Below are positions 40,214-58,544 of a stretch of DNA of 64,000 nucleotides, piece by piece. Within the stretch, counting starts at the first letter, position 1; every line of letters starts with the position of its first letter. The translations under genes and the position numbers were made by a program. The notes beneath the pieces were generated by a model. That model ran no database searches and was not told the origin of the DNA. It worked only from the letters and a program-made list of their open reading frames with translations. This stretch comes from Synechococcus sp. AG-683-C23 (GTDB lineage: Bacteria > Cyanobacteriota > Cyanobacteriia > PCC-6307 > Cyanobiaceae): positions 1-64,000 of the forward strand of contig QCVD01000004.1 in the NCBI GenBank assembly GCA_003208835.1. Reading direction: 5' to 3'.

Positions 40214-40286
40214 TGCCAGGACCCAGATTTGAACTGGGGACACGGCGATTTTCAGTCGCCTGCTCTACCAACTGAGCTATCCCGGC
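40214..40286 (-). tRNA. tRNA-Phe (GAA)
   Basis: GCCGGGATAGCTCAGTTGGTAGAGCAGGCGACTGAAAATCGCCGTGTCCCCAGTTCAAATCTGGGTCCTGGCA; acceptor, D, anticodon and T arms fold by eye. Confidence 0.95.
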
Positions 40287-40316
40287 TTGCCGCTTTCGCG
40301 ACCACTCAATCTTAAA

Positions 40317-40427
40317 TCACCGACCGTTGCGTCTTGCTGGTGTGCGTGCCAAACAGATGACTCCATGAACCCGATGGCCGCCTTGGGTCAGAGCGTTCCT
40401 AGCAGCTAAGGCTGTTGCTCCAGTCGT
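40317..40427 (-). pseudogene. comF: comF C-terminal fragment separated by element insertion
   Basis: Minus strand reads TTGATALAARNALTQGGHRVHGVICLARTPARRNGR*, a ComF/phosphoribosyltransferase C-terminus, beginning exactly at the element junction. Confidence 0.85.
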
Positions 40428-40446
40428 AACGGGTGCAGTTTCGTAC
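40426..40446. other. attL junction, element-side arm
   Basis: GT|AACGGGTGCAGTTTCGTAC; the outer GTACGA mirrors the right arm. Confidence 0.75.
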
Positions 40447-40456
40447 TAGCCGCAAA

Positions 40457-40618
40457 ATGGAGTCAACCATTGAACAGGTGATGACCCTCAAAGTGAGGGG
40501 AGAAGCCTGTGACCAGTTGCAAGCGATGGCATCTGAGGGAGATCGCACCCTCACTGCTCAGCTTCAACGCACGATCCGTCGTGATTACGCCTGCTTCATT
40601 CAGGAGGTGGCGGAATGA
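40457..40618 (+). CDS. Small RHH/Arc-like DNA-binding protein of the element
   Basis: MESTIEQVMTLKVRGEACDQLQAMASEGDRTLTAQLQRTIRRDYACFIQEVAE; the upstream start at 40433 falls inside the att arm. Confidence 0.55.
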   Translation: MESTIEQVMTLKVRGEACDQLQAMASEGDRTLTAQLQRTIRRDYACFIQEVAE

Positions 40619-40935
40619 GAGTTTCTGACGCGATCACATTGGCCATGTCCCGCCAAGACGGGGCTCGAGCCGCAGCGGTGATGGTTGCCGATGACCGACT
40701 AACTCCGGACACTCCGCACCATGTCGGAGCAGGTGATGCCAGGGAATGGGGCTCTGAGGATTTCTGCCTGGAAGACGCCTCAGTTTCTGCATTTCTGGGT
40801 GAGGGCTGTGAACCATTCAGCCGCCATCGGCAGATGTGTGAAACGGATTGGAATGGCGATCACTGCCAGGCCTTTCATCAAGGCTTCCTTGCTGTAGCCC
40901 TCGAATGCCTTCGGGCCGGAGGGATCAATGGCTGA
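40615..40935 (+). CDS. Element hypothetical protein
   Basis: ATGA overlap with the previous ORF and overlap with the next. Confidence 0.5.
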   Translation: MRVSDAITLAMSRQDGARAAAVMVADDRLTPDTPHHVGAGDAREWGSEDFCLEDASVSAFLGEGCEPFSRHRQMCETDWNGDHCQAFHQGFLAVALECLRAGGING

Positions 40936-41194
40936 AATCCCAAAGTTGCTCGATGAGTATTTCGAAGATCCCGATCAGCTTGAACTAGCCGATAAGACCT
41001 GGGATCAAATCGACCGTCTGTTGGATGCGTTGGTTCAAACCACGGCTTGCACCAATGAAGCCATCCGGTATCTGCTGGGGGCCATCGCTAAGGGGTGGCC
41101 TGATCCAGCCGATCGGTTTGCTTTCGAAGCGCGCCTGCTGAAAAAGAAGCAGGAGGGGATCAATGCTCATAACGAGCAACAGAGGGCGGCGTGA
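40928..41194 (+). CDS. Element hypothetical protein
   Basis: 88-aa ORF in the overlapping early operon. Confidence 0.5.
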   Translation: MAEIPKLLDEYFEDPDQLELADKTWDQIDRLLDALVQTTACTNEAIRYLLGAIAKGWPDPADRFAFEARLLKKKQEGINAHNEQQRAA

Positions 41195-41598
41195 TCGAAA
41201 CCATCGACAACGTGCTCGAGCAACTGGTGCTCGCCGGTGATGAAAAGATCGACTGGAGCCAACCGGATCCAAACGGTTCAATTGGCCGCTCCTGCCCCAT
41301 TGGCAGTTGGAGCATCGCTGAAGACACCGATTGCAGCGTCTTTGAACATCTGGACGACACGATCACAAAACGGTTGTGTCGGCTCGATATGAACGTGAAC
41401 GATGACGCTCACCTCCAGGCAATCTTTGATCCTGAAACCAGACGGATTGAAGCGCTCGAGATTTACGAGATCGACACCGGCGGCGTGTTGCTGACGTTGT
41501 GGTTTTGGCCTGGTCTGGAGTTAGCGCGCAAGCTGACGATCGCTACGCACAACCAATGGACCAAAGCCATTGATAACGGCTGGTTCGAGGGGATCTGA
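41191..41598 (+). CDS. Element hypothetical protein
   Basis: 135-aa acidic ORF, last gene of the overlapping early operon. Confidence 0.55.
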   Translation: MIETIDNVLEQLVLAGDEKIDWSQPDPNGSIGRSCPIGSWSIAEDTDCSVFEHLDDTITKRLCRLDMNVNDDAHLQAIFDPETRRIEALEIYEIDTGGVLLTLWFWPGLELARKLTIATHNQWTKAIDNGWFEGI

Positions 41599-41613
41599 CG
41601 TAAGGGCAATTAC

Positions 41614-41646
41614 GACGGTGACCCGGATCGAACCGGGTCAGCCGTC
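41614..41646. terminator. Strong hairpin between convergent genes
   Basis: GACGGTGACCCGGATCGAACCGGGTCAGCCGTC. Confidence 0.5.
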
Positions 41647-41949
41647 TTGGATTTGCTCGATGGTCCAGCCATATCCATCGCGCACAACCCGGTAACCGCG
41701 CTTCAGATAGCCGTGGCCTTCCAGAACTTCAAATTTGTTGCCATCAACCTTGATTCGAATTTTCCAGAAAGGATTAAGCGGCTCAGAATCAATGTCAATG
41801 TGCCCACCCATCTTTCGGAATTTGGACGCAGAGTTCCTGCCATCGTCCACGAACATGCCGTGACGGCCTGGCTCCCAAACTTTGTGGTTCTGAACCATCT
41901 TCACGGAACCGTCGGGATTGATGTCGACGATCAGAACGATCTCAGCCAT
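41638..41949 (-). CDS. Element hypothetical protein; start at 41949 preferred over 42180
   Basis: MAEIVLIVDINPDGSVKMVQNHKVWEPGRHGMFVDDGRNSASKFRKMGGHIDID...YGWTIEQIQDG. Confidence 0.55.
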   Translation of the reverse strand: MAEIVLIVDINPDGSVKMVQNHKVWEPGRHGMFVDDGRNSASKFRKMGGHIDIDSEPLNPFWKIRIKVDGNKFEVLEGHGYLKRGYRVVRDGYGWTIEQIQDG

Positions 41950-42359
41950 CAGACGCCCATCTGTCTGGTAATAATCCCATTTAAACGTTTCTTGTGTTTG
42001 TCGAGGTAAGCCGTCAGTGCTGCCTCCAACGCATCGGATTGGTCGGAGATCTTCTCCTCTGCATTGGTCTGGTCGGGACAGGGTTATGGGTCCGTCCCTC
42101 TGTGGCCGGACTGCACGTCGAGTAAAACGTGCAGATTGATGCAGATGGCAGGTGTCTATGTAGTAACTACTGCACAACATCTGCTGCTTTTTGGTATCTG
42201 TATTTACCTATCCGGTGTGTTGTCTTTTTGCTCAGATAAATTGCAATAACTGAGTTCGCTTGATTTATTGCTTGTTTCACTTGCGTGGGCTAGCAATTAC
42301 CCCTCCAGAAAAAGATTGGATCTAAAATTTAATCGCTAAGTCCACTTGACTCTTGAAAT

Positions 42360-42542
42360 ATGCTCACCATCGAGGAAGAGCTAAGGCTTCGGAAAAAGGG
42401 GGCAATGTCCCTCCATTTGACTCCTGATCTGCGCTTGTTGATTGAGCGTTATCAGCATCGTGAAGAAATTCGATCAGAAGCTGCCGCAGCGCGTGAAATC
42501 ATCCGCGCCGGTCTTCTTGTCACCGGAATGATTCCCGACTGA
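42360..42542 (+). CDS. Small RHH-like DNA-binding protein
   Basis: MSLHLTPDLRLLIERYQHREEIRSEAAAAREIIRAGLLV. Confidence 0.55.
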   Translation: MLTIEEELRLRKKGAMSLHLTPDLRLLIERYQHREEIRSEAAAAREIIRAGLLVTGMIPD

Positions 42543-42554
42543 TCCACATAAAAA

Positions 42555-42587
42555 TCCCCGGAGGTGCTTCCAACACCTTCCCGGGGA
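42555..42587 (+). terminator. GC-rich hairpin
   Basis: TCCCCGGAGGTGCTTCCAACACCTTCCCGGGGA. Confidence 0.5.
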
Positions 42588-42607
42588 ATATCTGAATCTC
42601 CTGAATC

Positions 42608-42772
42608 ATGGCATCTCCAACATCACTTTGCTGCCGTCATTGCGGCCAGCCGCGTACATCCGCCGATCACTATGCCGCTGCCGCCGCGATCGTCGACGAG
42701 CACTATCCCCGGATCAGTCGCGTTCTGAGTCGCCAGGTGGATCGCCACCTTGCTGCTGCGGAGTTGGTCTGA
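42608..42772 (+). CDS. 54-aa ORF with CxxC, not in the ORF track
   Basis: MASPTSLCCRHCGQPRTSADHYAAAAAIVDEHYPRISRVLSRQVDRHLAAAELV*, ending 4 bp before the next CDS. Confidence 0.5.
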   Translation: MASPTSLCCRHCGQPRTSADHYAAAAAIVDEHYPRISRVLSRQVDRHLAAAELV

Positions 42773-42775
42773 GTT

Positions 42776-45679
42776 GTGCATGCCCCGCACCTACCCGTTG
42801 ACTTCGACCTCGATGAGGATCTGCTCCCTCAGCACCTTGAAGAATGGACCCGTTACAGCGGGGTGTCGGAGGCCATCACTCGACTGAACGTCACCAGCTA
42901 CGCCGGTGAGTCAGTCCATGAGCTGATGATCGGTGATCGGCTTGAAGAGGCTGGGGGGCATGGCCAGCAATACGTCACCGGTCCCGTCCGAGTGCTGCTC
43001 GATAACCGCGACTCCCTTGAGCTCGGTGGTTGGTGGTGTCAGGGAGTTGATCTACAAAACGGTTGCAATTCTGCGACTGAGTTCGGTGTTTTCAAGCCGG
43101 ACCATCCCCGGAACAAAAAGAACGGCAAGCCGGCCAAGTACGAGCACCCCTATGGAATCCCAGAGCGGATCGTGGCGTTGCGCATGCCCGACCCCGATTA
43201 CTGGGCGCGGATTAAGGCCGACCCATCAATCGACATTGTTTTGGATGAGTCCGGCGGAAAGAAGCCCGGCGCATGGCTCACCGCTGGGATCCCTGCCTTA
43301 GGCGTCCCCGGGATATGGGCTGGAAGTCCTCCCATCGATTCCGATGATCCGGAACCAACCGTCGGCTTCGGGTACGGCGACAGCAAACCCAATGGCGGGT
43401 TTGTCTATGTCCCCAAGGTCAGGAAATTGCACCCTGATCTCGAGGTGCTCGCGGTCGGTCGCAGGTTCATCGTCAGCTTCGATTTCGAGCCCACGTCCGA
43501 TAAGGCTGCTCGCCGTGATGCAGCCACCCGTTTGTTGGTGGAGCAGCTCTATGCGGCTGGAGCGGCCAATGTTGCTGTGGCTCATCGCGAGGGCCCCGAG
43601 AAGGGCGCTGATGACCTGTTGGTGGCTGAGGGGGAGGAAGCCCTCCACGACTTACTCGCAAGCGCTGAGGACATCTCCCGCGGCCAATCGGCCCCGTCAT
43701 GGGAAAGGCAGCGATCAACACCCCTGATCGGTGATGCGCATGAGGCCGATTTACTTGCCAATGCAATTGCAGAACGGATTTATGCCGGCAGGCAATGGGC
43801 CCATGAGAACGATCGGGCGATCACCGACACCGCTCCCCTAATTCAGCTCACCAACACCCCCGGAACGGGCAAGTCGCACCTTGTTCCCCAGACCGGGCCA
43901 CGGCTGCTGGAGATCAAAGACATCGATCGGGTGATCTACATCTCCGACACATACCGCTCCCCATCAATCGGTGAGCTCCAGCGTTGGGTTGCTCCCCCGA
44001 CCAGACACAACGGTTTGGTGAAGGTGGAGGTTGAAGGCCAGCAACGGCTCCGCCGGCGCAAACGCTCCGATTCCGAGGAGATGGTCGTGGAGAAGGCCAA
44101 TTGTGGATATAGCGGCGGATTGCAGCAATTCCGCAATCAGGGAGCCAGCCAGGAGTCAATCACCGACTTCTGCAGCAATACGTGTCCAATACGTATGGGG
44201 TGCTCTTACCGGCGGAACCGGAGTGAATTCCTCAAGGGGCTGAAATCCGGCGAGCATCGCTTGCTCCGGTGTTCCGTTGAGTCGATTCCCACTCTCCAGC
44301 ATTGGCTCGGCAAGAAGGCCTGGGCGAAGACCTTTTTGATCTTCGATGAGGCCCCTCAGATTGAAAAGAGTGCAATACGTATCCGGCAACTAAGGCTTGA
44401 TCGCTTCCCGGTATGGGCCACTTGGCTCCGGATCGAATATCCCGGCCACATGGCCTCCCCCGCCGGCCAACAGCTCATCGCTTTGCTCGATGCGCTCACC
44501 ACCATCGAATCCAAGCTCGAGCCACAACAAAAGCAATTTGGCCTCCAGTCGCAGGAACTCCTCCGAGCTCTGCCACCAATCCCCTCGGCAGACGATCTGC
44601 ATTTCTTGGAGATTCCTGACCCTGAGCTAACCGCCATGGCCCCCGATGCCGATCACCAGGAGCAAAACCTCCCCTCCCCCCGGTTGTTGCCTTCACTGCT
44701 TCCAGCTCTTCGCTCAAAGGAACAGCACGAACTCCCGTCGGTTGCCTTCTACAGCCCGCAAGACGGGGGAAACATCACTGTTGTGGCCGCAGCATTTTCC
44801 CTGGTTGTTCCAGCTCTCTCCAGTGCTGGCTCATTGGTGCTTGATGGGACAGCTGCTCTGGATGACATCAACCGAGCTCTCCGCGGCGGATGGCCGGCTC
44901 CAGCCGATCATTTGGCCCCCATGGCCATCACAACTCCCACCACGCTCCAACCCGCAAATCTCGAGATCATTCAGATCCCCGACCTCGGGGCAATGGGCCG
45001 GAATCGTGGCGCAGACAAACAGCGCCGCCTCGAGGCTCTTCTCCCCGCTTTGAAGCAACACACCATCGATCGCTTTGGCCAAGAAGCCAAGCTCGGTGTG
45101 CTCGAGAAATCTCATTTCCGCTCCCGTGAAGCTGGCCACGGCATCTGGTTTGTTGATAACCAGGGGAGCAACGCGTACGAGAACGATCAGGCCTTGGCCA
45201 TGGTGGGAACCCCTGCCCCCAATCTCACAGCTTCTCTCTCACAATTCCAAGTCGCTCATAACCAGCCAACTGCAACTCTGAATTCCAATTCCTTCCGCGA
45301 TTGGTATGGCCGACGCATGGGGGAACAAATCATTCAGGGCATCCATCGACTCAGACCAATCCGCCGCAATGGTGAAACGCTTCAGATTTTCCTGATCACA
45401 GACATCGATCTCTCCAACGTCATCAAACCCGGGGGAGTTGTATCGTTCACCAAGAAACCATCTGCGACTTTTACAAAAGCGGCCGCCCCCAAGAAAGACC
45501 GCACGAGAGATCGCGTAATTAATACCATCCGTGAACTGCATCAAGAGGGAATATCCGCCGGCGAGATCACATGCAGGCGGGTTGCTGAACATGCCGCAGT
45601 TGGGAGAAATACCGCTCATAGACAGGCAGGAGACGGTCAATGGCTCACCTTTGTTGAGCTCTGCCTCAATGATGGCTAA
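42776..45679 (+). CDS. DUF3854-like (TOPRIM-type) plus P-loop helicase/primase replication protein
   Basis: DUF3854-like LTAGIPALGVPGIWAG...VSFDFEPTSDKAARRDAATRLLVEQL; Walker A TNTPGTGKSHL; Walker B-like FLIFDEAPQ; C-terminal HTH. Confidence 0.7.
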   Translation: MHAPHLPVDFDLDEDLLPQHLEEWTRYSGVSEAITRLNVTSYAGESVHELMIGDRLEEAGGHGQQYVTGPVRVLLDNRDSLELGGWWCQGVDLQNGCNSATEFGVFKPDHPRNKKNGKPAKYEHPYGIPERIVALRMPDPDYWARIKADPSIDIVLDESGGKKPGAWLTAGIPALGVPGIWAGSPPIDSDDPEPTVGFGYGDSKPNGGFVYVPKVRKLHPDLEVLAVGRRFIVSFDFEPTSDKAARRDAATRLLVEQLYAAGAANVAVAHREGPEKGADDLLVAEGEEALHDLLASAEDISRGQSAPSWERQRSTPLIGDAHEADLLANAIAERIYAGRQWAHENDRAITDTAPLIQLTNTPGTGKSHLVPQTGPRLLEIKDIDRVIYISDTYRSPSIGELQRWVAPPTRHNGLVKVEVEGQQRLRRRKRSDSEEMVVEKANCGYSGGLQQFRNQGASQESITDFCSNTCPIRMGCSYRRNRSEFLKGLKSGEHRLLRCSVESIPTLQHWLGKKAWAKTFLIFDEAPQIEKSAIRIRQLRLDRFPVWATWLRIEYPGHMASPAGQQLIALLDALTTIESKLEPQQKQFGLQSQELLRALPPIPSADDLHFLEIPDPELTAMAPDADHQEQNLPSPRLLPSLLPALRSKEQHELPSVAFYSPQDGGNITVVAAAFSLVVPALSSAGSLVLDGTAALDDINRALRGGWPAPADHLAPMAITTPTTLQPANLEIIQIPDLGAMGRNRGADKQRRLEALLPALKQHTIDRFGQEAKLGVLEKSHFRSREAGHGIWFVDNQGSNAYENDQALAMVGTPAPNLTASLSQFQVAHNQPTATLNSNSFRDWYGRRMGEQIIQGIHRLRPIRRNGETLQIFLITDIDLSNVIKPGGVVSFTKKPSATFTKAAAPKKDRTRDRVINTIRELHQEGISAGEITCRRVAEHAAVGRNTAHRQAGDGQWLTFVELCLNDG

Positions 45680-45855
45680 GGGAAATGGACCACTCTGCTA
45701 TGGGAAATGGGACAGAAGGAATAATCGATTCGAACCCGGCTGGAATTGGCCAATCTTGTCCCATTTTCTATATATCTCTCTATATGGGTTTTGGGACAAG
45801 CTCGCTATGGGAAAAAACTCGTGATTCCGCTGCTCCGAGCTCAGTGAAATGATCC

Positions 45856-45882
45856 GTCCCACGGGGATTAGTCCCCCTTTTT
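45856..45882 (+). terminator. Weak terminator-like hairpin
   Basis: GGGGATTAGTCCCCCTTTTT. Confidence 0.4.
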
Positions 45883-45950
45883 GAGTGGATTTGCGCAAGG
45901 CGCGCACATTTATACTTGTGGAAATTACCGATTGAGGAAAAAACCGGTAA

Positions 45951-46462
45951 TGCGCAATCAGCCGGCCATTGATCTCAAGATTCGCCCCCTCAATCCGCGG
46001 CAAGTGAATGCGCTGCAGATGGTGATTGATGGATATCGGAAGGGGGAGATTTGTGAGCGGCTTGGTATTACTGAAAAGACGCTGTTCAACTGGCGCCGGC
46101 TCCCCGCATGGAATGAGCAAGTCCAGGCGGTGCTGCAGATCGACAGTCAGGACGGCCAAGGCCAGATCAAGAGCCTTTTGCCGCTGGCTGTGCAGACGCT
46201 GAAGAAGCTGATCGTGAACGGCACCGACAACGTCAAGCTCGGGGCGAGCAGGACCGTGCTCGAGGCCCACGCCAATCTTGTGGCTCGTGAAGAGCAAGCG
46301 GCCGTCATTGCTGATCTCGAGGTACGGCTGGAGGAGATCGCAGCTGTTGGTGTCCAGAGCCTTGCCCCAATGGCCAGCGCCGTGGTGATCGATGCAGAGC
46401 TCGAGCCTGTCCAGTTCAGCAGCGTCACTGATCAACAGACAGGTACGCAGGAGGCGATGTGA
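45951..46462 (+). CDS. HTH protein resembling phage terminase small subunit
   Basis: LNPRQVNALQMVIDGYRKGEICERLGITEKTLFNWRRLPAWNEQVQAVLQ; start at MRNQPAIDLK preferred. Confidence 0.55.
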
Positions 46463-46640
46463 CAGTCAGGCCGGGCCAGGACTTAATCCGCTTGTCTCAT
46501 GAGATGAGATTGGAGATCGATCTGTGTCCAATGCAGGGTCGATTTATGTCCAGCTCACCTGTCTCATGGGGTGGTGTGCCAGTTGGAGCTCGAGTTCGAC
46601 CCCCGCCACGATGCGCGCCACAGCGATGGAGGCCTGACTG

Positions 46641-47390
46641 ATGGGCGCTGTCATTGACATCACCGGGAATACCTACGGCGAGTGGACTGTTAAGAGGCAC
46701 AGCCACAAGAGCTATTGGTATTGCCAGTGCTCCTGCGGAAGCGACGAGCAGCTCGTACTTGGAGGAAACCTCAAATCAGGAAAGTCCAAACGTTGCAAGT
46801 TCTGCTCTGGCAGGACGCAAGACATGACTGGCAAGGTCTTTGGCCGCCTCACTGTGATCCGTCAAGCACCATCGCAGGAGTACAGAAATTCAAATGGCAA
46901 GTTGGCTTACACCCGAGTCATGTGGGCTTGTAAGTGCTCTTGCGGCAACCCCGAAGAAGTCATTGTCTCGGGTGACCACCTGCGCAACCAGGGCACCAAA
47001 TCCTGCGGCTGTCTTCGGAGTGAGGCAGCACAGCAGAAGCGCACCCACGGGATGACTGTTGATGGTCCTGACGGTGGACCGACGCCGGAATATCTAATGT
47101 GGGCGAGAGCAAAACGCCGGGCTCAAGAAGAAAAGTTGCCCTTCGATTTGGATCCCAGTGATATTGAAATTCCGGAGTGCTGTCCTGTCTTTGGATGGAA
47201 ATTAGATATTGGGGATGGAGCAAGCCAGGACGCCAGTCCGTCAATGGACAAACTCGTTCCATCGAAGGGATATGTGAAAGGCAACGTCTGGGTGATCTCC
47301 CACCTTGCGAATCGAATTAAGAACAACGCGACGCTCGATCAACTCGAGGCAGTTACTGCAGCTCTTCGTAAAAAATTTGAGGCCGTCTGA
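46641..47390 (+). CDS. Phage-type HNH endonuclease-like protein with two zinc-ribbon-like repeats
   Basis: TGNTYGEWTV..WYCQCSCG.., TGKVFGRLTVI..WACKCSCG..., C-term CPVFGWKLD...PSMDKLVPSKGYVKGNVWVISHLANRIKNNAT. Confidence 0.7.
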   Translation: MGAVIDITGNTYGEWTVKRHSHKSYWYCQCSCGSDEQLVLGGNLKSGKSKRCKFCSGRTQDMTGKVFGRLTVIRQAPSQEYRNSNGKLAYTRVMWACKCSCGNPEEVIVSGDHLRNQGTKSCGCLRSEAAQQKRTHGMTVDGPDGGPTPEYLMWARAKRRAQEEKLPFDLDPSDIEIPECCPVFGWKLDIGDGASQDASPSMDKLVPSKGYVKGNVWVISHLANRIKNNATLDQLEAVTAALRKKFEAV

Positions 47391-47734
47391 TGGGATCCGC
47401 TGCACAGATCCTCCAACCCCCCAAAGCCCGCTTGCAGGCCCTCCTGAGTGGTGTTGAGGAGCTCGAGGCCAGGGTGCTGCAGGCCAAACCGATCAAGACC
47501 ATCAGAGTTGCGCGTTGCGGCCATCCGGAATGTGGAGCAGCCCCTCCAGCCGAGCTCCCCGTGGATGCGCTGGTGATCGAGATGGGCTGCCAATACGCAG
47601 TGCCCCAGATCTCCATGCCAGAGCCCGAGAAGGTGCGCACCAGAGCGGAGCCCAAGCGAGTGGAGCATGCGATCGGTGTGGGGATTAGCGAGAAGCAACA
47701 GAGCCGGCTGCTGAGCAGGGTTCAACTCCTCTAG
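47390..47734 (+). CDS. Element hypothetical protein
   Basis: Adjacent start, same operon direction. Confidence 0.5.
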   Translation: MGSAAQILQPPKARLQALLSGVEELEARVLQAKPIKTIRVARCGHPECGAAPPAELPVDALVIEMGCQYAVPQISMPEPEKVRTRAEPKRVEHAIGVGISEKQQSRLLSRVQLL

Positions 47735-47752
47735 CCCTCCCATGCGTATCTG

Positions 47753-48733
47753 ATGACTACTGATCCCAAGGGCACGACAACGGCTGATCTCGCCGGAATG
47801 GTGGAGGAGACGCGTCAAGCGAGCCCACAGCAACGCAAGGAGGTGATGGGGCAACTCTCAACCACTACGGAAGGCGGTGCGTTACAGCACGTCCTGGGGG
47901 TGCTGGAGAAGCTTGCGGAATGGCTCCCCTGTTTGTCTGAGCAGCAGCGGGTAACGCTTGCCACGGGTCAGTCGCTGGGAGTTAGAAGCCTGGCTGAGCA
48001 AGACATTGAAGAGAGGTTATTTGCGTTCTGGTGGAAGAACAGCGACCGGGATGCGTTTGATCTACGGATGCAAGTTTTGTTGGCTGATGGTGTGATGCGC
48101 CCCTCAGCCCGATTGTTGATCAGGCGTGTACGGAGCCGAATTGATGATCGGTTGATCCTTGAGCAGCTTCCACGATTTGAGGTGTTGGAGTGGAGCGCTG
48201 AAGAAGTGAAGCGCAAGAGCGAGGGAGAGCCCCATGAAAATGTGATTAGCAAGGAGGCCAGCGCATTAGCTAATGAGGTGCTGGCGGCTTACTCCGCAGA
48301 GCTCAAAGATGGTGATGCTTTGGTGTACGGCCAGATCACACCTGAGGATGCACGGCTATGGATTCAATGCAGCAAACAGATATCAAGAACAGGGATGATA
48401 AACATGAATTCAAAAATCAGTTATCGAGAGCAGGCGCTACGTAAAATAAAGAAGCTCTTTAACAAAGTGCGGAATAACGGTTGCGACAGTTTGGGGCAGT
48501 ATCAGCAACGGATCGAAGAGCGAAGAGGCTCATGGGGAAAGGCAACAGAATTCCGAATTGATAGCCGAGGGCAGATGGTTAATGGATTAAATCAGCCTGT
48601 GCAGTGGCATGAATCATCTGGGCGTTATGCGGTTGAGGAGCTTGGTTTTATGAGTGTTTTTGGTGATCGTCAATTGGAGGATGTTGTGAATGAGATCAGC
48701 CGTGCATCACGGGTCAAAAAAGAGCGAGGTTGA
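47753..48733 (+). CDS. Element hypothetical protein
   Basis: 326-aa ORF, plausible composition, no motif recognised. Confidence 0.55.
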   Translation: MTTDPKGTTTADLAGMVEETRQASPQQRKEVMGQLSTTTEGGALQHVLGVLEKLAEWLPCLSEQQRVTLATGQSLGVRSLAEQDIEERLFAFWWKNSDRDAFDLRMQVLLADGVMRPSARLLIRRVRSRIDDRLILEQLPRFEVLEWSAEEVKRKSEGEPHENVISKEASALANEVLAAYSAELKDGDALVYGQITPEDARLWIQCSKQISRTGMINMNSKISYREQALRKIKKLFNKVRNNGCDSLGQYQQRIEERRGSWGKATEFRIDSRGQMVNGLNQPVQWHESSGRYAVEELGFMSVFGDRQLEDVVNEISRASRVKKERG

Positions 48734-48802
48734 GCAAAGTCGATGAAATGTAGGGATTAAAATTAAGGGGCAATAAACCTCGAGCATTGACTCGAAAAGG
48801 GT

Positions 48803-49321
48803 ATGGCTGGCAATCATGAATTGACGGATCCAGAGGAGATTAAATTCCTCTATGAGATCGCAGTTTCTACGGATAATCAGGACAAGATCACGTGTGAGAA
48901 CCCTGCATCAAAGAACGGCCAAGTGGCTGATTTATTGATGATGCAAGCGGACACATTGAATCCTGCTTTAGCTGCACGTTGGCGCCGTCGTGCTGGGGCT
49001 ACCCCAACGATTGCGGCGATGGCTGCATTGCATGGCCATGCCGAGATGACAGCAGAAGCGAAAGCGAATCTGCGGTCATGCGATGAGGATTTTGTTCTGG
49101 ACGATTTAGCGGCGCAGAAGGCCTATGAGGCAGAGCAACTGGCAGCGATGGATCGGCAGGTGGAAGCAATCCAACGAGATCGAGAGGGAGATGCGAGATA
49201 TGAGGCGCGATTGAAGCGAGAAGCAGCTGCAGCGGCGGCTCATGAGGAGCAAGTGCAGCAATCCCATGAAACCCAGCGCCGGATTGAAGCGATCCAAGCC
49301 CAACACGCGAGGACTTACTGA
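48803..49321 (+). CDS. Element hypothetical protein with Ala/Glu/Gln-rich helical C-terminus
   Basis: 172-aa ORF, coiled-coil-like C-terminus. Confidence 0.55.
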   Translation: MAGNHELTDPEEIKFLYEIAVSTDNQDKITCENPASKNGQVADLLMMQADTLNPALAARWRRRAGATPTIAAMAALHGHAEMTAEAKANLRSCDEDFVLDDLAAQKAYEAEQLAAMDRQVEAIQRDREGDARYEARLKREAAAAAAHEEQVQQSHETQRRIEAIQAQHARTY

Positions 49322-49586
49322 TTGTTGAATCAATCAGCCGCAAGATCACACCCAGCCAGCAATGGTGGGTTTTTCTCTGAGAACAGACAATCCCTGTTGG
49401 CGTTGCAGCCGATGCCTGCGGGCTAGTCACTTTTTTTTGGCATATGAGGGGGGGGGGATGTCAGCCGAAGTGACTACCCGTTCTGGGGAGGTGGCTTCAT
49501 ATAGATAACGTCAAGATAAATGTGCACTTAGGAATGCCAGCAAAGGCTATGTATGCTATTTGCTGTCTTAATGCTTCAACTCAGCT

Positions 49587-50471
49587 GTGGCAAAACTACC
49601 TTCTGAAGCCCCTATTTTGTTTGACGTTGAGTGCGACAGCAGCACGATCAAGAAACGCAAGGACGGCAGCTACAAGCTGGTGATGGAAGACGTTGATAGG
49701 GTTCACTGGGAAACAGACGAAGCAGAATCTGAGGAAGGTTATTACACCGCAAAAAAATATGCCGACAACTATTACGGCGAAGAAGCTGGGGTAAGCGCCT
49801 ATGAGACGTTCACCCTTGCTGACGGGACAAAGAAGAAGTGCAAGTTCACAATAACTGATGTCAAATATAACAAGAAGTCAAACAAGCTAATTTACGAAAT
49901 CACACCTAAAAATAACAAGCAGGCTGACAAGATTACGGGCATTGAAAGTGATACGCAGACCGTAATTGCTGCGTCTTCATCAGATGGCACCCGTTTTCGT
50001 CCTGGTTGGATGCCGGATGGGGAGAGAAGGAACCTGAATGGTGAGTACCTGAGTAATGCGGACCTGAGTAATGCGGACCTGAGTAATGCGGACCTGAGTT
50101 TTGCGGACCTGAGTGATGCGGACCTGCGTGGTGCGGACCTGCGTAACGCGGGCCTGCGTTTTGCGGACCTGATTGCTGCGGACCTGAGTGATGCGGACCT
50201 GCGTGAGGCGGACCTGATTGGTGCGGACCTGATTGCTGCGGACCTGAGTTTTGCGGACCTGAGTGATGCGGACCTGAGTGGTGCGCGCAATGTGATTACA
50301 TCAAAAAATCCAAAGTCGGCGAAATGGGATGGAACAACCTGCCCTGATGGTTCCATGAACGTTGATTACCAACCCTGCAGTGGAGATCAATTGACTCCGC
50401 TGACTCCCACAGCTCCTGATCCATTACCCGGTCAGTCTCCGGTAGCTGACCCATTAGCTGATCCTTTCTAA
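49587..50471 (+). CDS. Pentapeptide repeat protein of the element
   Basis: [39 protein letters not shown]...; GTG start. Confidence 0.8.
50041..50285 (+). repeat. 15-bp tandem DNA repeat (about 16 units) encoding pentapeptides
   Basis: Consensus GCGGACCTGAGTAAT with conserved GCGGACCTG core and variable 6 bp. Confidence 0.9.
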
Positions 50472-50631
50472 GGCGATGACAACCCCGTCGTTATTGCCGA
50501 CGATCTGTTCTAGGCCAACTCAGATCTGATGTAACACTTAAGCTGATTTATATGGAACCATCACTTGAATGAAGGTTTCATAAATGTTGGTACACTACCC
50601 TGCGGTGGAGATCAATTGATTCCGCTGGCTT
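50349..50631 (+). repeat. Imperfect direct repeat of the pentapeptide gene 3' end (50349-50406 and 50574-50631)
   Basis: GGTTCCATGAACGTTGATTACCAACCCTGCAGTGGAGATCAATTGACTCCGCTGACT versus GGTTTCATAAATGTTGGTACACTACCCTGCGGTGGAGATCAATTGATTCCGCTGGCT. Confidence 0.8.
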
Positions 50632-50643
50632 GATTCACACTTA

Positions 50644-50667
50644 GCCCCGTCGCAAGGCGGGGTTTTT
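50644..50667 (+). terminator. Rho-independent terminator
   Basis: AGCCCCGTCGCAAGGCGGGGTTTTT. Confidence 0.75.
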
Positions 50668-50823
50668 GCTGAGAAGTCGATATTTTTAGTGGCCTAAAAT
50701 TAAGGGGTCTATCAGGGACATTGCATCCCGCATTATGACTCCAAAAGAAGTTCAAATAATGAACCTTCAAACCTTTTTTTGGACCGATTCATTCGCCAGG
50801 AACAGCTTTGGGGGTGACTGCTG

Positions 50824-51306
50824 ATGTGGCTGCCTGTCCATGGATGTGCTTTGCCATTGCCACTGCGCAGTCCCCAAAGATGCGGGGTTCGACAGTTCGG
50901 ACCAAAGCCGAGCCCGTTGTGGATCAAGTGTTCCGCCGACCCCCAATTGGCTTGGATTTTGTTGATTGGTGGTCCAGAAGCAATCGCTGAGTTTGCCCTT
51001 GCTCGACATGAATTAAGCCGTTGTGCGTTTGAGAAAAAGCATTGGATGACGTTTGTTCATTCCGCTCACCGGATATACGACCGCCAAGCGAAGCGGGAGG
51101 CAATTGAGCGAGAACGACAACCCAAGCCATTGACCTGGGAAGAACGCCGCCAAATTCTCATCCAACGGGATGAACAACGTCGAGCCCAATACGTTTTGGA
51201 GAGGTCATGGGACAAACCATCGGCTCCATGTCCACGGCGGCTGACGCTGTCCGAGCGAATGGAGCGCAGCTATCGAAGGCGCCGTTATTTGGTGAAGGGC
51301 CAATGA
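50824..51306 (+). CDS. Element hypothetical protein
   Basis: 160-aa ORF, basic C-terminus; ATGA overlap with the next ORF. Confidence 0.45.
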   Translation: MWLPVHGCALPLPLRSPQRCGVRQFGPKPSPLWIKCSADPQLAWILLIGGPEAIAEFALARHELSRCAFEKKHWMTFVHSAHRIYDRQAKREAIERERQPKPLTWEERRQILIQRDEQRRAQYVLERSWDKPSAPCPRRLTLSERMERSYRRRRYLVKGQ

Positions 51307-51713
51307 AACGCAACGGCCTTGATAATTGGAAGCCTGGTGAGCCATTGGTTTCGCTGTCCGGGGATCCCCCAGAGGAGAGCGGGCGGGCGTCCCTCTCTTC
51401 GCCGGCGCCGGCAGCAGGCCTCGACGGGGGCATCGGGGCCACCCCAATGAACGTCGAGCTCAATGGCACGGCTTGGCAGATGGTGGCCGGCACTGATGCC
51501 GATGAGCACGGCCAAGTTGAAACCCTGGAACATCTCCAGCATTTGCTTGAAACCAGCCCGGAGGTTGTGGGGCCGATGCTGATGGGAGCGCTGGTGCGAT
51601 TGCGCGCCGCGTTGCAGCAGATCCCCCGTGATGCCGATGCAATGCACCCGGTAGCGGTGCCGGCTTGCGATGCAGTGCTGTTGACCCGATCGGTGTTGAG
51701 AGGCCTGCGATGA
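51303..51713 (+). CDS. Element hypothetical protein
   Basis: MKRNGLDNWKPGEPLVSLSGD...; ORF track start 51207 is in frame but overlaps the preceding ORF. Confidence 0.5.
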   Translation: MKRNGLDNWKPGEPLVSLSGDPPEESGRASLSSPAPAAGLDGGIGATPMNVELNGTAWQMVAGTDADEHGQVETLEHLQHLLETSPEVVGPMLMGALVRLRAALQQIPRDADAMHPVAVPACDAVLLTRSVLRGLR

Positions 51714-51718
51714 GACGC

Positions 51719-51943
51719 CTATTGGCACCAGATCTGAAGTTCTTTGGCAATCACTGGGGAGAGTGGATCGACCATGCAGTTGGCGTCAGGCAAGTCATTC
51801 ACATAGGCATAAGCACCCTTTTGAGTGATGACCTTCGAGCCTTTCATGTAGGTGTTAAAGCCGGCTGCGATGGATGGAAGGACGGTTGCAAAGCCCATCC
51901 CAATCACGATTCCAGCGAACAACCCCTTAGTTGCCTGATTCAT
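51719..51943 (-). CDS. Small membrane/secreted hypothetical protein
   Basis: MNQATKGLFAGIVIGMGFATVLPSIAAGFNTYMKG. Confidence 0.5.
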   Translation of the reverse strand: MNQATKGLFAGIVIGMGFATVLPSIAAGFNTYMKGSKVITQKGAYAYVNDLPDANCMVDPLSPVIAKELQIWCQ

Positions 51944-52014
51944 TTATGCAGAGCTGATCCATTCACCTTCGCAGTATCGGTAGGGATGGCGCATCTCCAA
52001 AACGGGGGGTTCCG

Positions 52015-53259
52015 ATGACCGTTCAGATGCTCGAGCTCAAACCGGCCGCGGCGGAAATTCTTAGGTCGCCGGCCAAGGTGAAAGTGGTGAATTCAGGGCG
52101 CCGATTCGGAAAGACCCGGATGGCGTTGACCTGGTTGCTGGAGGGTGCACTGCTGACGCCTGGGAGCCGGATGTGGTTTCTCGCCCCCTCGCGATTGCAG
52201 GCCAAATCGATCGCTTGGAAAGATCTCAAAGAGATGGTCCCCCAGAGCTGGGCGTCCCAAGTGCGGGAATCGACCCTCACTGTGGAGCTTCGAAATGGGA
52301 GCCACATTCAACTTGCTGGAGCCGATTACGCCGACAGCTTGCGTGGTCAAAAAGCTGATCGATTCGCGGTCGATGAGTACTGCTATATCAGGGATCTGCA
52401 GCAGATGTGGGAGGGCGCGCTGCTCCCCATGCTCGGCACCTCTGACGATGGCTCGGTGATCTTCAGCAGCACCCCTGCGGGTGGTGGATCGTTCTCAGCT
52501 GATCTCTGGGAGAGGGCTGGCAGCATGGAGAGCTGGGCCCGGTGGAACTTCCCCTCAGTTGCTGGTGGATGGATCAAACCCGAATATGTCGAGCAAGCCA
52601 AAGCAACGATGGATCCAAGCCTGTGGCGACAGGAATTCTTCGGATCGATCGAGAGTCTGTTGGGGGCCGTGTACCCGGCATTTAATCAACAGAACATCAG
52701 GGACACCGTTGATAACGATGGGCCGATTTTGGTGGGCTGTGACTTCAACAGATCGCCTTATTGCGGCTGCATCCTTCAGGTCCAGGGGGACTCGGTGGTG
52801 GTGCTCGAGGAGATCGTGTTGATGGAGGCCGACTCCAGAGAGTTTGCGTTGGAAGTCCGTGATCAGTATCCCAACCGCATGATCCATTGCGCGCCGGATC
52901 CAACTGGCTCGCGAAAACAGACCAGCTCGCTGGGGCTGAGTGATCACAAGATCCTCGAGGAATACGGCAACTTCAAAATCTGCAGCCCCCGTGCACCGTG
53001 GGCCATCAAAGACAAGGTGAACAGCACCAGATTGATGATCTTGGATGCCAGTGGACGGCGCCGGCTCCAGGTCGATCCAAGCTGCAAGCGGCTGATTCGA
53101 AGCCTGAAGAACCTGGAATTCAAACCAGGTTTATCGGTGCCAGATCCTCAGAGCGATCACGGCCACATGGTCGATGCTTTGGGTTATGGCTGCCTGGCGC
53201 TGAGTAAAGGCCTGACGCCTTGGAGGGTCGGCTCAAGCGAGATGATCAGGGTCTGGTAA
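52015..53259 (+). CDS. Phage-type terminase large subunit
   Basis: Walker A-like VVNSGRRFGKTRMAL; SRLQAKSIAWKDL; LRGQKADRFAVDEY; IFSSTPAG; nuclease-like GCDFNRSP, CAPDPTGSRKQ, DHGHMVDALGYG. Confidence 0.85.
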   Translation: MTVQMLELKPAAAEILRSPAKVKVVNSGRRFGKTRMALTWLLEGALLTPGSRMWFLAPSRLQAKSIAWKDLKEMVPQSWASQVRESTLTVELRNGSHIQLAGADYADSLRGQKADRFAVDEYCYIRDLQQMWEGALLPMLGTSDDGSVIFSSTPAGGGSFSADLWERAGSMESWARWNFPSVAGGWIKPEYVEQAKATMDPSLWRQEFFGSIESLLGAVYPAFNQQNIRDTVDNDGPILVGCDFNRSPYCGCILQVQGDSVVVLEEIVLMEADSREFALEVRDQYPNRMIHCAPDPTGSRKQTSSLGLSDHKILEEYGNFKICSPRAPWAIKDKVNSTRLMILDASGRRRLQVDPSCKRLIRSLKNLEFKPGLSVPDPQSDHGHMVDALGYGCLALSKGLTPWRVGSSEMIRVW

Positions 53260-54720
53260 TCACTTTTCTTTTTTTAAAAATCGACCACTTTTAGCGTCAA
53301 TAGGAACAGGTTGCTCATGAAATTTGGGTAGGAACTCTCTCACCTTGGGCATCCATTTATATCTATGTAGCGTCTGATAAAGCTTTTTATTGTTCTGTGC
53401 AATATCTGAGATCGATCGATACTCTTGAGCCATCTTAAGAGCCATCTCTTCGCTCCATACAATTCGTTCTCGACTGAAATGAGACCCAATCTCATCCATA
53501 ATTCCACGACGATGGGCTACTTGATAAGCACCTGGAGATCCAAGACGAAATTCACTACGCGATTTGTAATGCTTGGCAACCTCAGCTAACTTTTCCTTGG
53601 TCCATTTTCCAGCACTAGATCCAATCGCACCTACACTTGCGCTGCTATTTAAAATATCAAATCCTTTTTCATGAAGTATATCCATGAACTCTTTCTCAAT
53701 TCCATCTTTAACTTCAGCAGCTGAATATATGTAAGGAGTCATTTGCTCATAGACCGTATCCTCCTCAAGCGTAATCTCTTTAGACCTTGTCGTGTTACTC
53801 ATATAGCGATGTGCTGCAAATCTTGAATCAGCCTTCTGCGCGGTGATCCCAACGTAAGCCTTTTGAAGTCTTTGGTTGTAAATTGCATAAACGCAGTGGA
53901 GATAGCCATTATCGGCAATTTCCATATGCTCACAGGCCTCTTCTAGCCATCCATTAGCACGTGCCTGGTTATATGCAGCGCCTTCTTCTCTTGAAAAAAC
54001 TGATCGGCTATTAAAGGTTTTGGCCACATCAAGAACATTTTGCTTGATCGTCCAAGGGGCTCCCTTCCGCTCCATATGAGCGCAAATTTCGTCCAACCAT
54101 CCATTGGCACTAGCGCGTTGGTAAGCGCTTGTAGAGGCATCATCGAAATCCTTCCTGTGTTTGTACTTGGCCGCCTCTTCTTTGCACGCCTCAAAAGTCC
54201 ACTTTTGTTCCCAGAGGACTTCCATATGGGCGCAAATCTCATCAAGAAATTCTTGACCTTGCTCTTTGGCGAACCCCCAGCAACCTTGAGCCTCATCATG
54301 GAAAGCACCTCTATTTGAGTAATTTTTTGCTTCAGCCATGGCACTGTCTCTGGTCCACCTTTTTGGAGCTGGCATATGGGCCATTGCATCTTCTGCCCAT
54401 CCGTATCGAAGGGCTGCTGCATAAGCACCATTGGAACCATGAATAAATTTTGATCGTTCCTGATACTTCTGTGCTTCAGCGATGACCTTTTCTTTGCTTA
54501 GCCATTTCCCTTCCCTTACCAAGTAAGGAGGTGGCATGTGGGCAATAGCTTCTTCTAGCCATCCATTGCGAATAGCAGATTCATAAGCACCATTTGAATT
54601 GCTGGTGAAATCACTACGTCGTTTGTATTTCTGAGCCTCTCTAATGACATTTTCTTTGAGTCGCCAGTGGCCCCAGGGAGTTTTCTGCCCTTCGCTGTGA
54701 TCCTCCTTTTCTGAGTTCAT
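53260..54720 (-). CDS. GIY-YIG endonuclease-like protein with about seven ~48-aa repeats
   Basis: CVYAIYNQRLQKAYVGITAQKADSRFAAHRYMSN plus repeats W..E.v..eA.kY..Rs.F....GAY.aA..nGWl.E...HM. Confidence 0.75.
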   Translation of the reverse strand: MNSEKEDHSEGQKTPWGHWRLKENVIREAQKYKRRSDFTSNSNGAYESAIRNGWLEEAIAHMPPPYLVREGKWLSKEKVIAEAQKYQERSKFIHGSNGAYAAALRYGWAEDAMAHMPAPKRWTRDSAMAEAKNYSNRGAFHDEAQGCWGFAKEQGQEFLDEICAHMEVLWEQKWTFEACKEEAAKYKHRKDFDDASTSAYQRASANGWLDEICAHMERKGAPWTIKQNVLDVAKTFNSRSVFSREEGAAYNQARANGWLEEACEHMEIADNGYLHCVYAIYNQRLQKAYVGITAQKADSRFAAHRYMSNTTRSKEITLEEDTVYEQMTPYIYSAAEVKDGIEKEFMDILHEKGFDILNSSASVGAIGSSAGKWTKEKLAEVAKHYKSRSEFRLGSPGAYQVAHRRGIMDEIGSHFSRERIVWSEEMALKMAQEYRSISDIAQNNKKLYQTLHRYKWMPKVREFLPKFHEQPVPIDAKSGRFLKKEK

Positions 54721-54785
54721 TGCTTTGTTCCTATCCCGCCAGTATCCACCGGTATTTCTGCGCTGTCATTCCCCATTTGGGTGAA

Positions 54786-56426
54786 TCAAGCATTGAGTTT
54801 CACGCTCATGACCTTTCTCTCATTGACCTGGATCTCCTGGACAATTTCCCGGATAAGTTGAATCCAGGGGTTCTCTTTCCAGGTGTAATCCTCTGGTTTT
54901 AAAGGGTTGCCGCCCTCTCGCAGGCCATCGGGCTCCTGGGCATAAATCGCATGCTGGAGTTGCTGCTCAGTCCACTCCATGCCTGCCATTGATCGGCCTC
55001 TTTCCCTCCACCAATCGGCCACCGCATGCTCGGGATCTGGTGGGGTCAAAACCACCTCTTCGCCTAGTTCAATTTCGCCGGCCTTCACCTTGTCGAGTAC
55101 GTCCAAAAGCCCCACGCGCTGTGATGCCTCCATCCGGATTCGATCCAGCTTTGGCATTCCATATTTCCCCCAATCCATGCCGGCCTCCATCAGTGCAGCA
55201 ATCTGCTGATCGAGCGATGTGACTGCCCCTTGGAGCTCTGGGGCATCACCGTCGGCCATCAGTTTCAAATACTTCTGACGCTTGGCCTGGAGCTTCTGAA
55301 CCTCGGGTTGATCCAGTGCCGCTTGGTCTTGCTGTTTGGCTTGCTTCTCCTCCAATGCGGCCAGGGCATCGGCCTGATCGTGCATCGCTTGGAAAACTGC
55401 GGTGAACACTAAAGATTCGCTGATGCTGTTGCGGCGGACCCCAGGCTTGCGCCAGTTGCAATCCTCGTTGAGGCAGCGATATGCGGGGTTTCCTGGAGCG
55501 TTCCGGCCTGGACGCATGGCGCGCCCCATCTTTCGGCCGCAGTGGTTGCAGATCACCTTCCCGCTGAGGAGATGCTGCCGGCGTTTGTCTGGTGATGATC
55601 GGCGGGCTTGAGCTCCACGGATGCGCGCCTCCAGTTGTTGATGCCGCTCGGGATCCACTAACGGTGTGCCGCCGGCCCCCTCTTCAACATCGGCCCAAGT
55701 TGCGATCGATAAGTTCTTGCAACGCTTGCCAACCTTCGCCCCGCGAAGAGCCGGATTGATCAGCAATCGTTGAATCATTACGCGGTCTTTCCAGATCCCG
55801 TATTTCTCTCCGATGTATCGCCATGGGGCAACAAAGCTGATGTTTTCTTCGAGCTTGTCGATCATCTCCAGCACTAAATCAGCGCGGGTGACTGTTCGGC
55901 GCTCTGCAATAAAGCAAAAAATAGCCTCCTCTGGGTCGTTGTCAGGTTGTAATTTTCCCGCAACTTGTTTCATCCCAAAAGGAGCTTTATCGACCAATCC
56001 CTTGGCTTTTCGATGAGCTTTACCGGCCGCGGCACGCTCACGAATCCGCTCGACTTCAGCCTGGGCCACAGCACCAAGCAAGCGCAACTGGAGCCGGCCC
56101 CCAATGCTGCTGAGGTCCATTGGGTCATCGAGCAGGACGAGGTCTGGAGCGCCGTCTGCGGTGAAGACATCTACGAGCCGACAAGTTTCTGTCGCGCCCC
56201 TGGTCAGACGATCCCAGCGGGTGGCCACCACCTTGGAAACATCGCCGGCTTTTACCCGTTTAAGCAGCTCTCGGTATCGCGGTCTGGCCTCACTGGTGCC
56301 GCTCATTATGTCCACAAGAACCTCGCCGGCCCCGGCTTCTTTCAGCCGCTGGATCTGCTGCTCAAGTGTGAGACCCCTGTCCTGGTCTGTCGTTGAGAGG
56401 CGCGCGTAGCCGACAACAGACGCCAT
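54786..56426 (-). CDS. Large serine recombinase (integrase)
   Basis: VVGYARLSTTDQDRGLTLEQQIQRL; RWDRLTRGATETCRLV; LLGAVAQAEVERIRERAAAGKAHRKAKG; zinc ribbon CNHCGRKMG...CLNEDC. Confidence 0.93.
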   Translation of the reverse strand: MASVVGYARLSTTDQDRGLTLEQQIQRLKEAGAGEVLVDIMSGTSEARPRYRELLKRVKAGDVSKVVATRWDRLTRGATETCRLVDVFTADGAPDLVLLDDPMDLSSIGGRLQLRLLGAVAQAEVERIRERAAAGKAHRKAKGLVDKAPFGMKQVAGKLQPDNDPEEAIFCFIAERRTVTRADLVLEMIDKLEENISFVAPWRYIGEKYGIWKDRVMIQRLLINPALRGAKVGKRCKNLSIATWADVEEGAGGTPLVDPERHQQLEARIRGAQARRSSPDKRRQHLLSGKVICNHCGRKMGRAMRPGRNAPGNPAYRCLNEDCNWRKPGVRRNSISESLVFTAVFQAMHDQADALAALEEKQAKQQDQAALDQPEVQKLQAKRQKYLKLMADGDAPELQGAVTSLDQQIAALMEAGMDWGKYGMPKLDRIRMEASQRVGLLDVLDKVKAGEIELGEEVVLTPPDPEHAVADWWRERGRSMAGMEWTEQQLQHAIYAQEPDGLREGGNPLKPEDYTWKENPWIQLIREIVQEIQVNERKVMSVKLNA

Positions 56427-56461
56427 TCAGGTGGGTGGAGTTGCATCATCATTATTGTTGT

Positions 56462-56482
56462 GTACGATTTTGTCACCCCGGT
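56462..56482. other. attR junction, element-side arm
   Basis: GTACGATTTTGTCACCCCG|GT. Confidence 0.75.
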
Positions 56483-57037
56483 AAGAATGTCGTCAACAAG
56501 CCAAAGCTCATGTTTTGGCTGAATGGATGCATGGGGGGCAGGGGCCGCGTGAAAAGCGACATCCAGGTTTTGCATTCGCATGGATCGATTGAGGTGGTGC
56601 TGACTAAGCCCCGTCCGAGTCCGTTGGAGCAGCATTGTGCTGGGCTGCCCAAATCCTGCGGCAATTAGCTTTGGGAGAGGATTACTTCGCTTCTTTTTCC
56701 AGCTCGGAATGGGCACCAACAAAGCTCCCTGGGGGAGGGGGTGATTGTTGGCAAGTAGCTGAATCACTGCGCGCCCAGTGCGGCTTTGAGGCTGCTGTTT
56801 GATTTGCAATACGAGCTGTCGGAACTCACCTTGATAGGTGCCGAGTGCTTTCCATGGGAGAGGCTCATTCCCGCTGGTATTGGATTGGCCGAGGCCGTAA
56901 TCCTCGATGCAATGGCCACAGGGCTGAAGCTCGGCACCGGTCTTGGCGGCAGGGTTGCCTTCGAGGCTCGCTCGACAGATCGGACAGGACGGCTGAATCA
57001 GGAGTGCTTAAGCCGCCTTGAGCAGTGCATCAAACAC
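56481..57037 (-). pseudogene. comF: comF N-terminal fragment (amidophosphoribosyltransferase-like)
   Basis: Minus strand: CPICRASLEGNPAAKTGAELQPCGHCIEDYG...LVPIPSWKKKRSNPLPKLIAAGFGQ...QRTRTGLSQHHLNRSMRMQNLDVAF...ELWLVDDILT|; junction at 56481/56482; upstream start uncertain. Confidence 0.85.
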
Positions 57038-57641: not shown

Positions 57642-58544
57642 TCAGCCCCAGGTTTTGGCATTTTTAGACCCATACATTCTGGCAAAAGCGCCGGATGTTG
57701 GATCGTTCACGGCTCGCGAGTAGGAGAAGCTTGCAACCTCGTAGCCACCCTCTGCCGTGGTCAGGCGTCTGGCATTGGTGAATTCCATCACCAGTTGGCT
57801 GCGACCTTCAATCGTCGTGTCTGAAGCGGCATTCCCAGGCGTGACGCGTCCAAGATTCACGAACGTAGAGCAGTAAGCACCTGCTGCGGAGGTCCAGGCA
57901 CGCAAGTAAGGAACGGTATCCGTGCCAAATACTTCTAAGTATTCACCCGACCGTGTGAGCTTCTCGACCAGACCATCGAACCCATGCTCAGCAATCAGGG
58001 TGATCGCTGCGCTCACTTCGGCCTGGTTGATTGGCGGACGACCGAGCAAATGTTTGTAGTTCAGTTCGATGCCACGAATGGGTGATACCCGGAAAAAATA
58101 GTTCTGTTTGTACAGATCAGATTTCGCAAGGCCCGCCACAAAATCACGTACAGAGATATCTCCATTCATCAGCTGAGACTCCAGCTCTGTGAAGCGCTGA
58201 TTCTCGGTAGGCCCAAGATTGCCAAAGACTTGGCGGTAAGACGCTGTGATCGTTGCTGTTAGAGCATCACTACCCGTTGAGGCGAATTCATCTGCAACGG
58301 CACTAAACGGACATTCACTATGAATGCGAGGGCCGATACCAATACCGGTCGCTCCACATAGATTTTCCTTGTATTCAAGGGTTGTCTTGCCAACAAGGCC
58401 TTTTCTGGGAACCAAGTTCCCAAGTTTCTGCTCTTCGCGATAACGATTGATTGCAGTGTTCTGCTTCTGTTTCGCGGAGTTGCTTGCGGTGTAAGAAACG
58501 CGGTTGAGACTTGTGAAATCGCGTGTCGGCTTGATGACGACCAT
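57642..58544 (-). CDS. mpeE: Phycoerythrin II-type rod linker outside the main phycobilisome cluster
   Basis: CGATGIGIGPRIHSECPFSAVADEF; RGIELNYKHLLGRPPINQAEVSAAI; same architecture as mpeC. Confidence 0.72.
   Translation of the reverse strand: MVVIKPTRDFTSLNRVSYTASNSAKQKQNTAINRYREEQKLGNLVPRKGLVGKTTLEYKENLCGATGIGIGPRIHSECPFSAVADEFASTGSDALTATITASYRQVFGNLGPTENQRFTELESQLMNGDISVRDFVAGLAKSDLYKQNYFFRVSPIRGIELNYKHLLGRPPINQAEVSAAITLIAEHGFDGLVEKLTRSGEYLEVFGTDTVPYLRAWTSAAGAYCSTFVNLGRVTPGNAASDTTIEGRSQLVMEFTNARRLTTAEGGYEVASFSYSRAVNDPTSGAFARMYGSKNAKTWG

Follow-up and report, generated by a model that had tools for sequence, protein, structure and literature searches.

A satellite-like element with a large serine recombinase interrupts comF at one dinucleotide in Synechococcus and related picocyanobacteria

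The window, i.e. the whole 64,000-nt stretch of Synechococcus sp. AG-683-C23 (genome G000) that was analysed, contains the competence gene comF in two halves on the minus strand, separated by an element of 16,055 bp from core to core. The features of the locus are listed below; percentages are protein identities to related elements in two other genomes, G029 and G118.

40214-40286, minus strand: tRNA-Phe, directly downstream of comF, an arrangement also found in relatives
40317-40427, minus strand: comF 3′ half (TTGATALAARN...ARRNGR, then stop)
40426-40427, minus strand: crossover dinucleotide AC (minus-strand letters), element/comF-3′ junction
40428-40446, minus strand: recombinase-distal attP arm, beginning GTACGA
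42776-45679, plus strand: 967-aa DUF3854 protein, primase/helicase-like, with a Walker A-like motif (63% to G118)
45881-46462, plus strand: terminase small subunit-like HTH protein (57% to G118)
46641-47390, plus strand: HNH/endonuclease VII-like protein
47390-47734, plus strand: 114-aa protein of no assigned family (51% in G118)
47753-48733, plus strand: 326-aa protein of no assigned family (28% to a G118 protein; a fragment in G029)
48803-49321, plus strand: 172-aa protein of no assigned family (33% to a G029 protein)
49587-50471, plus strand: pentapeptide-repeat protein, 294 aa
50824-51306, plus strand: 160-aa protein of no assigned family (40% in G029)
51207-51713, plus strand: 168-aa protein of no assigned family (59% in G029)
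52015-53259, plus strand: terminase large subunit (87% to G029, 68% to G118)
53260-54720, minus strand: 486-aa protein with a weak GIY-YIG match
54786-56426, minus strand: large serine recombinase, 546 aa (Resolvase and zinc ribbon; nearest NCBIfam model XisF, below cut-off)
56462-56480, minus strand: recombinase-proximal attP arm, ending TCGTAC
56481-56482, minus strand: crossover dinucleotide AC (minus-strand letters), comF-5′/element junction
56481-57037, minus strand: comF 5′ half (GTG start; ...LWLVDDILT)
57008-57010, minus strand: premature TAA at comF codon 10 (CAA in the relative L006)

The 5′ half starts with a GTG at 57035-57037 and reads ...LWLVDDILT up to 56481, after which the sequence no longer resembles comF. 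The 3′ half, read on the minus strand from 40427 to 40317, encodes TTGATALAARNALTQGGHRVHGVICLARTPARRNGR and ends with a TGA stop codon at 40319-40317. Both junctions share the letters TTAC (56481-56484 and 40426-40429), and joining the halves at this common tetranucleotide produces an in-frame ...LWLVDDILTTGATALAARNALTQGGHRVHGVICLARTPARRNGR followed by the stop codon, including ...VDDILTTGATALAARN.... The minus-strand reads and the shared TTAC thus confirm the original prediction of both junctions, and the predicted 16.05-kb insert and large serine recombinase at the right junction were also found, the recombinase gene lying 54 bp inside the junction. The assignment as ComF is based on a match to TIGR00201 (E 1.2e-11, under the strict cut-off of the model) and on an alignment with 12 relatives, in which the cysteine pairs and the PRPP-loop motif are conserved. 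An intact comF elsewhere in the genome would have spoken against the original prediction; a search of the contigs of this fragmented, 77%-complete assembly yielded no second comF.

The base preceding the AC core (56483 and 40428) is T on both sides in the window and C in relatives; in G029 it is C on both sides. The T/T agreement is unexpected, since the host should have supplied one copy and the element the other; the two letters may agree by chance, or the exchange may have covered slightly more than the core. Between comF and tRNA-Phe, at 40300-40320, lies a TTTAAGAT motif that is also conserved in relatives. It may serve as the promoter of the tRNA, and this could be why the tRNA tolerates the insertion. 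A phycobilisome rod-core-type linker protein is encoded at 57642-58544 (NCBIfam CpcG matches under cut-offs). An intact dprA lies outside the window on the same contig, about 11 kb from comF (G000:C4:67999-68610), and the comF-dprA neighbourhood was also found in G004, G006, G015, G029, G118, and G129.

Empty sites were found in three relatives, as had been proposed as a check of the original prediction. In G004 (L006) comF is uninterrupted, and the joined flanks of the window align to it at 94% DNA identity in a single alignment (positions 83-2345) that spans the junction at 2116. G015 (L008) and G006 (L009) also have an intact comF and agree with the empty site of G004, and in all three tRNA-Phe is located directly downstream. 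The insert is therefore foreign and comF its target, as predicted, and the insertion into this competence gene was precise.

The identical comF dinucleotide is occupied by related elements in three further genomes, i.e. G029, G118, and G423, a recurrence that exceeds chance. The complete, single-contig genome G029, from the same genus, has an element of 9,406 bp between its comF halves, with a terminase large subunit 87% and a recombinase 67% identical to those of the window. There is a frameshift near residue 95 of its recombinase and another in its comF 3′ half (TTGSTALAAGQALK, then AAGHHVAGLICLGRTPARERRR in a different frame). The element of G118, a complete, single-contig genome of a different genus, comprises 18,849 bp, and its primase (63%), small (57%) and large (68%) terminase subunits, and recombinase (54-57%) are related to those of the window. 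It is the only one of the four copies with every part intact, including both comF halves and the recombinase. The fourth copy, of 18,185 bp, is on contig JAPOKD010000028.1 (G423), which is labelled Planctomycetota and has the comF halves at its two ends. The recombinase is 68% identical to that of G118; the cargo differs, and no match to the terminase large subunit was found in this element. The joined flanks are 97% identical to the intact comF of G129, indicating that the contig is from a misbinned picocyanobacterium and represents a second pair of occupied and empty sites.

Occupancy is low. Recombinase matches with E <= 1e-30 were obtained in five genomes of a 400-genome sample of the family (G000, G029, G118, G129, and G301). 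The recombinase of G301 is more distant, and comF is intact in this genome. G129 was rejected as an occupied case, its recombinase being an N-truncated remnant far from an intact comF. The comF search gave strong matches in approximately 190 of the 400 genomes, only three of which are split by an element. G239 was considered as a fifth case and rejected, since both contigs merely end at the att codon and the genome has no recombinase relative. Such breaks at the att codon were seen in two fragmented assemblies (ends of G239:C141 and C40; start of G371:C119) and could stem from populations in which only some cells carry an element, or from low coverage. In-frame TGA codons that recur in comF of one genus were discarded as mutations, because in G129, the sole case examined, the TGA is the natural stop codon.

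To characterize the att sites, attP was reconstructed for each genome with the crossover set at the AC of the first Thr codon, and 124 centres were ranked for inverted repeats. In four of four genomes the longest inverted repeat is centred exactly on AC (rank 1 of 124), i.e. GTACGA/TCGTAC in the window, GGTAC in G029, CTGCTGG/CCAGCAG in G118, and GGTGGT/ACCACC in G423, with single-site shuffle P values of 0.005, 0.019, 0.001, and 0.004, respectively. When the centre was left free, an ungapped palindrome search over attP gave no significant result; the dyads become informative once the four sites are compared at the shared dinucleotide. A central dinucleotide common to attP and attB and a quasi-palindromic attP are typical of large serine recombinases, and both are seen here, with AC in all four genomes. 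The attP here carries no replacement for the comF 3′ end.

The recombinases form one clade of five sequences (support 100/100), within which G118 and G423 are grouped at 99/98. The orientation of the elements follows this tree. The recombinase gene adjoins the comF 5′ half in the window and in G029, and the 3′ half in G118 and G423, the latter sub-clade being inserted the opposite way. For serine integrases, the central dinucleotide alone decides orientation (PMC3556126), which suggests that one sub-clade has its core turned round with respect to the recombinase gene.

The window recombinase has an N-terminal resolvase domain (Resolvase, 1e-27) with the catalytic serine motif YARLS, a zinc ribbon (Zn_ribbon_recom, 3.9e-6), and a long C-terminal region, and can be aligned to the SPbeta integrase YokA over residues 34-340. 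Its score against the XisF equivalog model, 232.7 bits, is below the curated NCBIfam cut-off of 375. The element proteins scanned against Pfam and PHROGs gave no match to capsid, portal, or tail families, as would be required for a complete tailed prophage; an integrase together with replication and packaging genes and no virion module is the composition of a phage satellite, and in its gene content the element looks phage-satellite-like. Proteins scanned with Pfam did not match XisH or XisI, and ten element proteins gave no match to defence families. Single-sequence scans of IMG/VR and of genome contigs with the recombinase, terminase, and primase gave no hits, and no close relatives were retrieved from IMG/VR or the phage records: for the recombinase, long alignments in IMG/VR did not exceed about 34% identity, and matches in phage records were confined to the N-terminus, the relatives of the terminase large subunit reached only about 30%, and the primase had no relative in IMG/VR.

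As stated in the original prediction, the two halves of comF are in frame. The TAA at codon 10 had been overlooked, and because of it the joined gene is not open from its start. The next in-frame start in the list of open reading frames is the TTG of a 155-aa frame (56342-56809), and a ComF translated from it would lose the zinc-ribbon region. Compared with L006, dN is 0.027 and dS 0.09 (dN/dS about 0.3); eight synonymous changes, six non-synonymous changes, and one stop are derived on the window branch, and four and two changes, respectively, on the L006 branch. Stop aside, the window comF is thus not obviously decayed, and this constraint points to a young insertion and a recent stop or to a sequencing error. 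Clean excision would not yield a working gene unless this base is an assembly error.

Four genomes with the element at one dinucleotide, precise empty and occupied sites, a single recombinase clade, and AC-centred attP dyads are best explained, with good confidence, by a recurrent and precise knock-out of comF by a site-specific, satellite-like element, whose serine recombinase joins attP to an attB within comF. The attB would lie in the PRPP-loop codons (VDDIL-T-T), the first Thr codon providing the AC at which crossover takes place. Through the insertion ComF is deprived of its PRPP-loop end and of about its last 36 residues, from which loss of ComF function can safely be inferred. ComF is necessary for transformation in Synechococcus elongatus (PMC7125226), and, in a report cited in PMC7690421, was described as crucial in Synechocystis. 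Insertion is therefore likely to result in the loss of natural transformation. Such a block would cost the element nothing and could shield it from chromosomal curing, i.e. deletion by transformation, which has been proposed as the reason why comYC, comFA, comK, and comM are broken by mobile elements (PMC4774983). Mobilisation would presumably need the capsid of a helper phage, since terminase genes are present in the element and none for a capsid, portal, or tail were recognised. In the window host the knock-out would in practice be one-way, because comF has also gained the nonsense codon.

The main rival concerns the evolutionary purpose. It is a tenable, albeit less probable, reading that comF merely offers a conserved place to land. 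The integrase would then recognise the invariant DNA of the PRPP loop on account of its conservation, and losing competence would be a by-product, either neutral or slightly harmful. Integrases usually have DNA-level targets inside conserved genes, and the target here encodes the most conserved ComF motif. In addition, comF was lost or decayed without the element in G001, G013, G014, G151, G064, and G144, suggesting that it may be weakly selected and merely a conserved landing site, which counts against a selected knock-out. Both comF and comEC are broken in G001, and comF, comEC, and dprA in G014, while in G064, G144, and G151 comEC is retained although a good comF is missing, so that the losses of comF and of competence appear to be loosely coupled. 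In G001 (C1:423155-423777) and G013 (C4:51299-51909) the frameshift in comF is located just upstream of the att site, and comEC of G001 is truncated. G029 and G118 have full-length comEC and dprA. Arguing against a mere landing pad, most integrases use sites that leave the gene whole, and here attP brings no replacement 3′ end; moreover, repeated hits on a competence gene are in line with the pattern described in PMC4774983.

The original prediction had proposed that the element switches competence off and on, as a Listeria comK prophage does. Under such regulated gene integrity the recombinase would excise the element in some condition, comF would be restored, and the element would later re-integrate; a programmed counterpart is the excision of heterocyst DNA elements by the related recombinase XisF. 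The clean junctions, at which no comF bases are lost, would permit this, and among curated families the recombinase is closest to XisF, which in cyanobacteria carries out excision under developmental control (PMC4874684). However, excision would leave comF closed in the window genome (nonsense codon) and in G029, where comF and the recombinase alike carry frameshifts, the XisF score is below the curated cut-off, no XisH or XisI was matched in the Pfam scans, and the excised form was seen in none of the assemblies. We therefore regard a reversible switch as improbable. As reversibility is contradicted in two genomes, a one-way selfish knock-out is favoured, which would resemble the insertions into competence genes reported in PMC4774983. 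For G118 a reversible version is possible, as the comF halves, recombinase, comEC, and dprA are all intact and excision would reopen the gene. A decidedly speculative extension would be that, in G118-type picocyanobacteria, the XisF-like recombinase reversibly frees comF of the satellite, possibly upon infection by a helper phage, resulting in competence switching at the DNA level. If true, this would be a case of such switching in unicellular cyanobacteria. Lastly, a chimeric assembly of two unrelated pieces, for which the fragmented, 77%-complete window genome could be blamed, is refuted by the split at the identical base in two single-contig genomes and in a metagenomic contig with both comF halves, and has a negligible probability.

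Integrating elements are poorly known in marine Synechococcus, isolates of which were reported to have no intact prophages (PMC8776855), and here a satellite-like serine-integrase clade repeatedly targets one dinucleotide of a competence gene. The view of mobile elements as agents that disarm transformation gains a new lineage and a new target. The defined attP/attB pair of a new serine integrase is a candidate tool for cyanobacterial engineering, and the comF split is a simple marker to score the loss of competence in ocean populations.

Several known systems resemble the element in part. Prophages of the Listeria A118/comK type share the large serine integrase, the attB in a competence gene, the quasi-palindromic attP of about 50 bp, and the orientation-setting central dinucleotide (PMC3556126). 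In contrast, the target here is comF instead of the regulator comK, the phylum is different, no virion genes were recognised, both orientations occur, and comF is damaged in two of the four copies. The prophages and islands in comYC, comFA, and comM (Croucher et al. 2016, PMC4774983) share the repeated, precise breaking of competence genes in different species. In the accessible part of that study, however, neither comF, which encodes a ComFC-type phosphoribosyltransferase (comFA encodes a different protein), nor a cyanobacterial case is among the targets. The fdxN element and other XisF-type elements likewise interrupt a host gene, have the recombinase family nearest to ours among the NCBIfam models, and may have the recombinase gene pointing either way (PMC4874684), as found here. 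They differ in that our recombinase scores below the XisF cut-off, xisH and xisI were not found, and no cell differentiation is involved; the heterocyst-element survey does not mention comF (PMC4874684). Phage satellites (PICI, PLE, and PICMI, as well as VEIME and tycheposons of marine bacteria) share a size of about 9-19 kb, site-specific integration, a primase, terminase genes, the lack of recognised structural genes, and aquatic hosts. Unlike these, the present element has a large serine integrase, a protein gene as target instead of a tRNA, and a DUF3854 primase that matches no PHROGs profile. In a text search of the main texts of freely accessible literature, no paper united comF, a serine recombinase, and an insertion. 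The type of event is known; what appears to be new is the gene that is hit, the lineage of the host, the satellite-like cargo, and the occurrence of two orientations.
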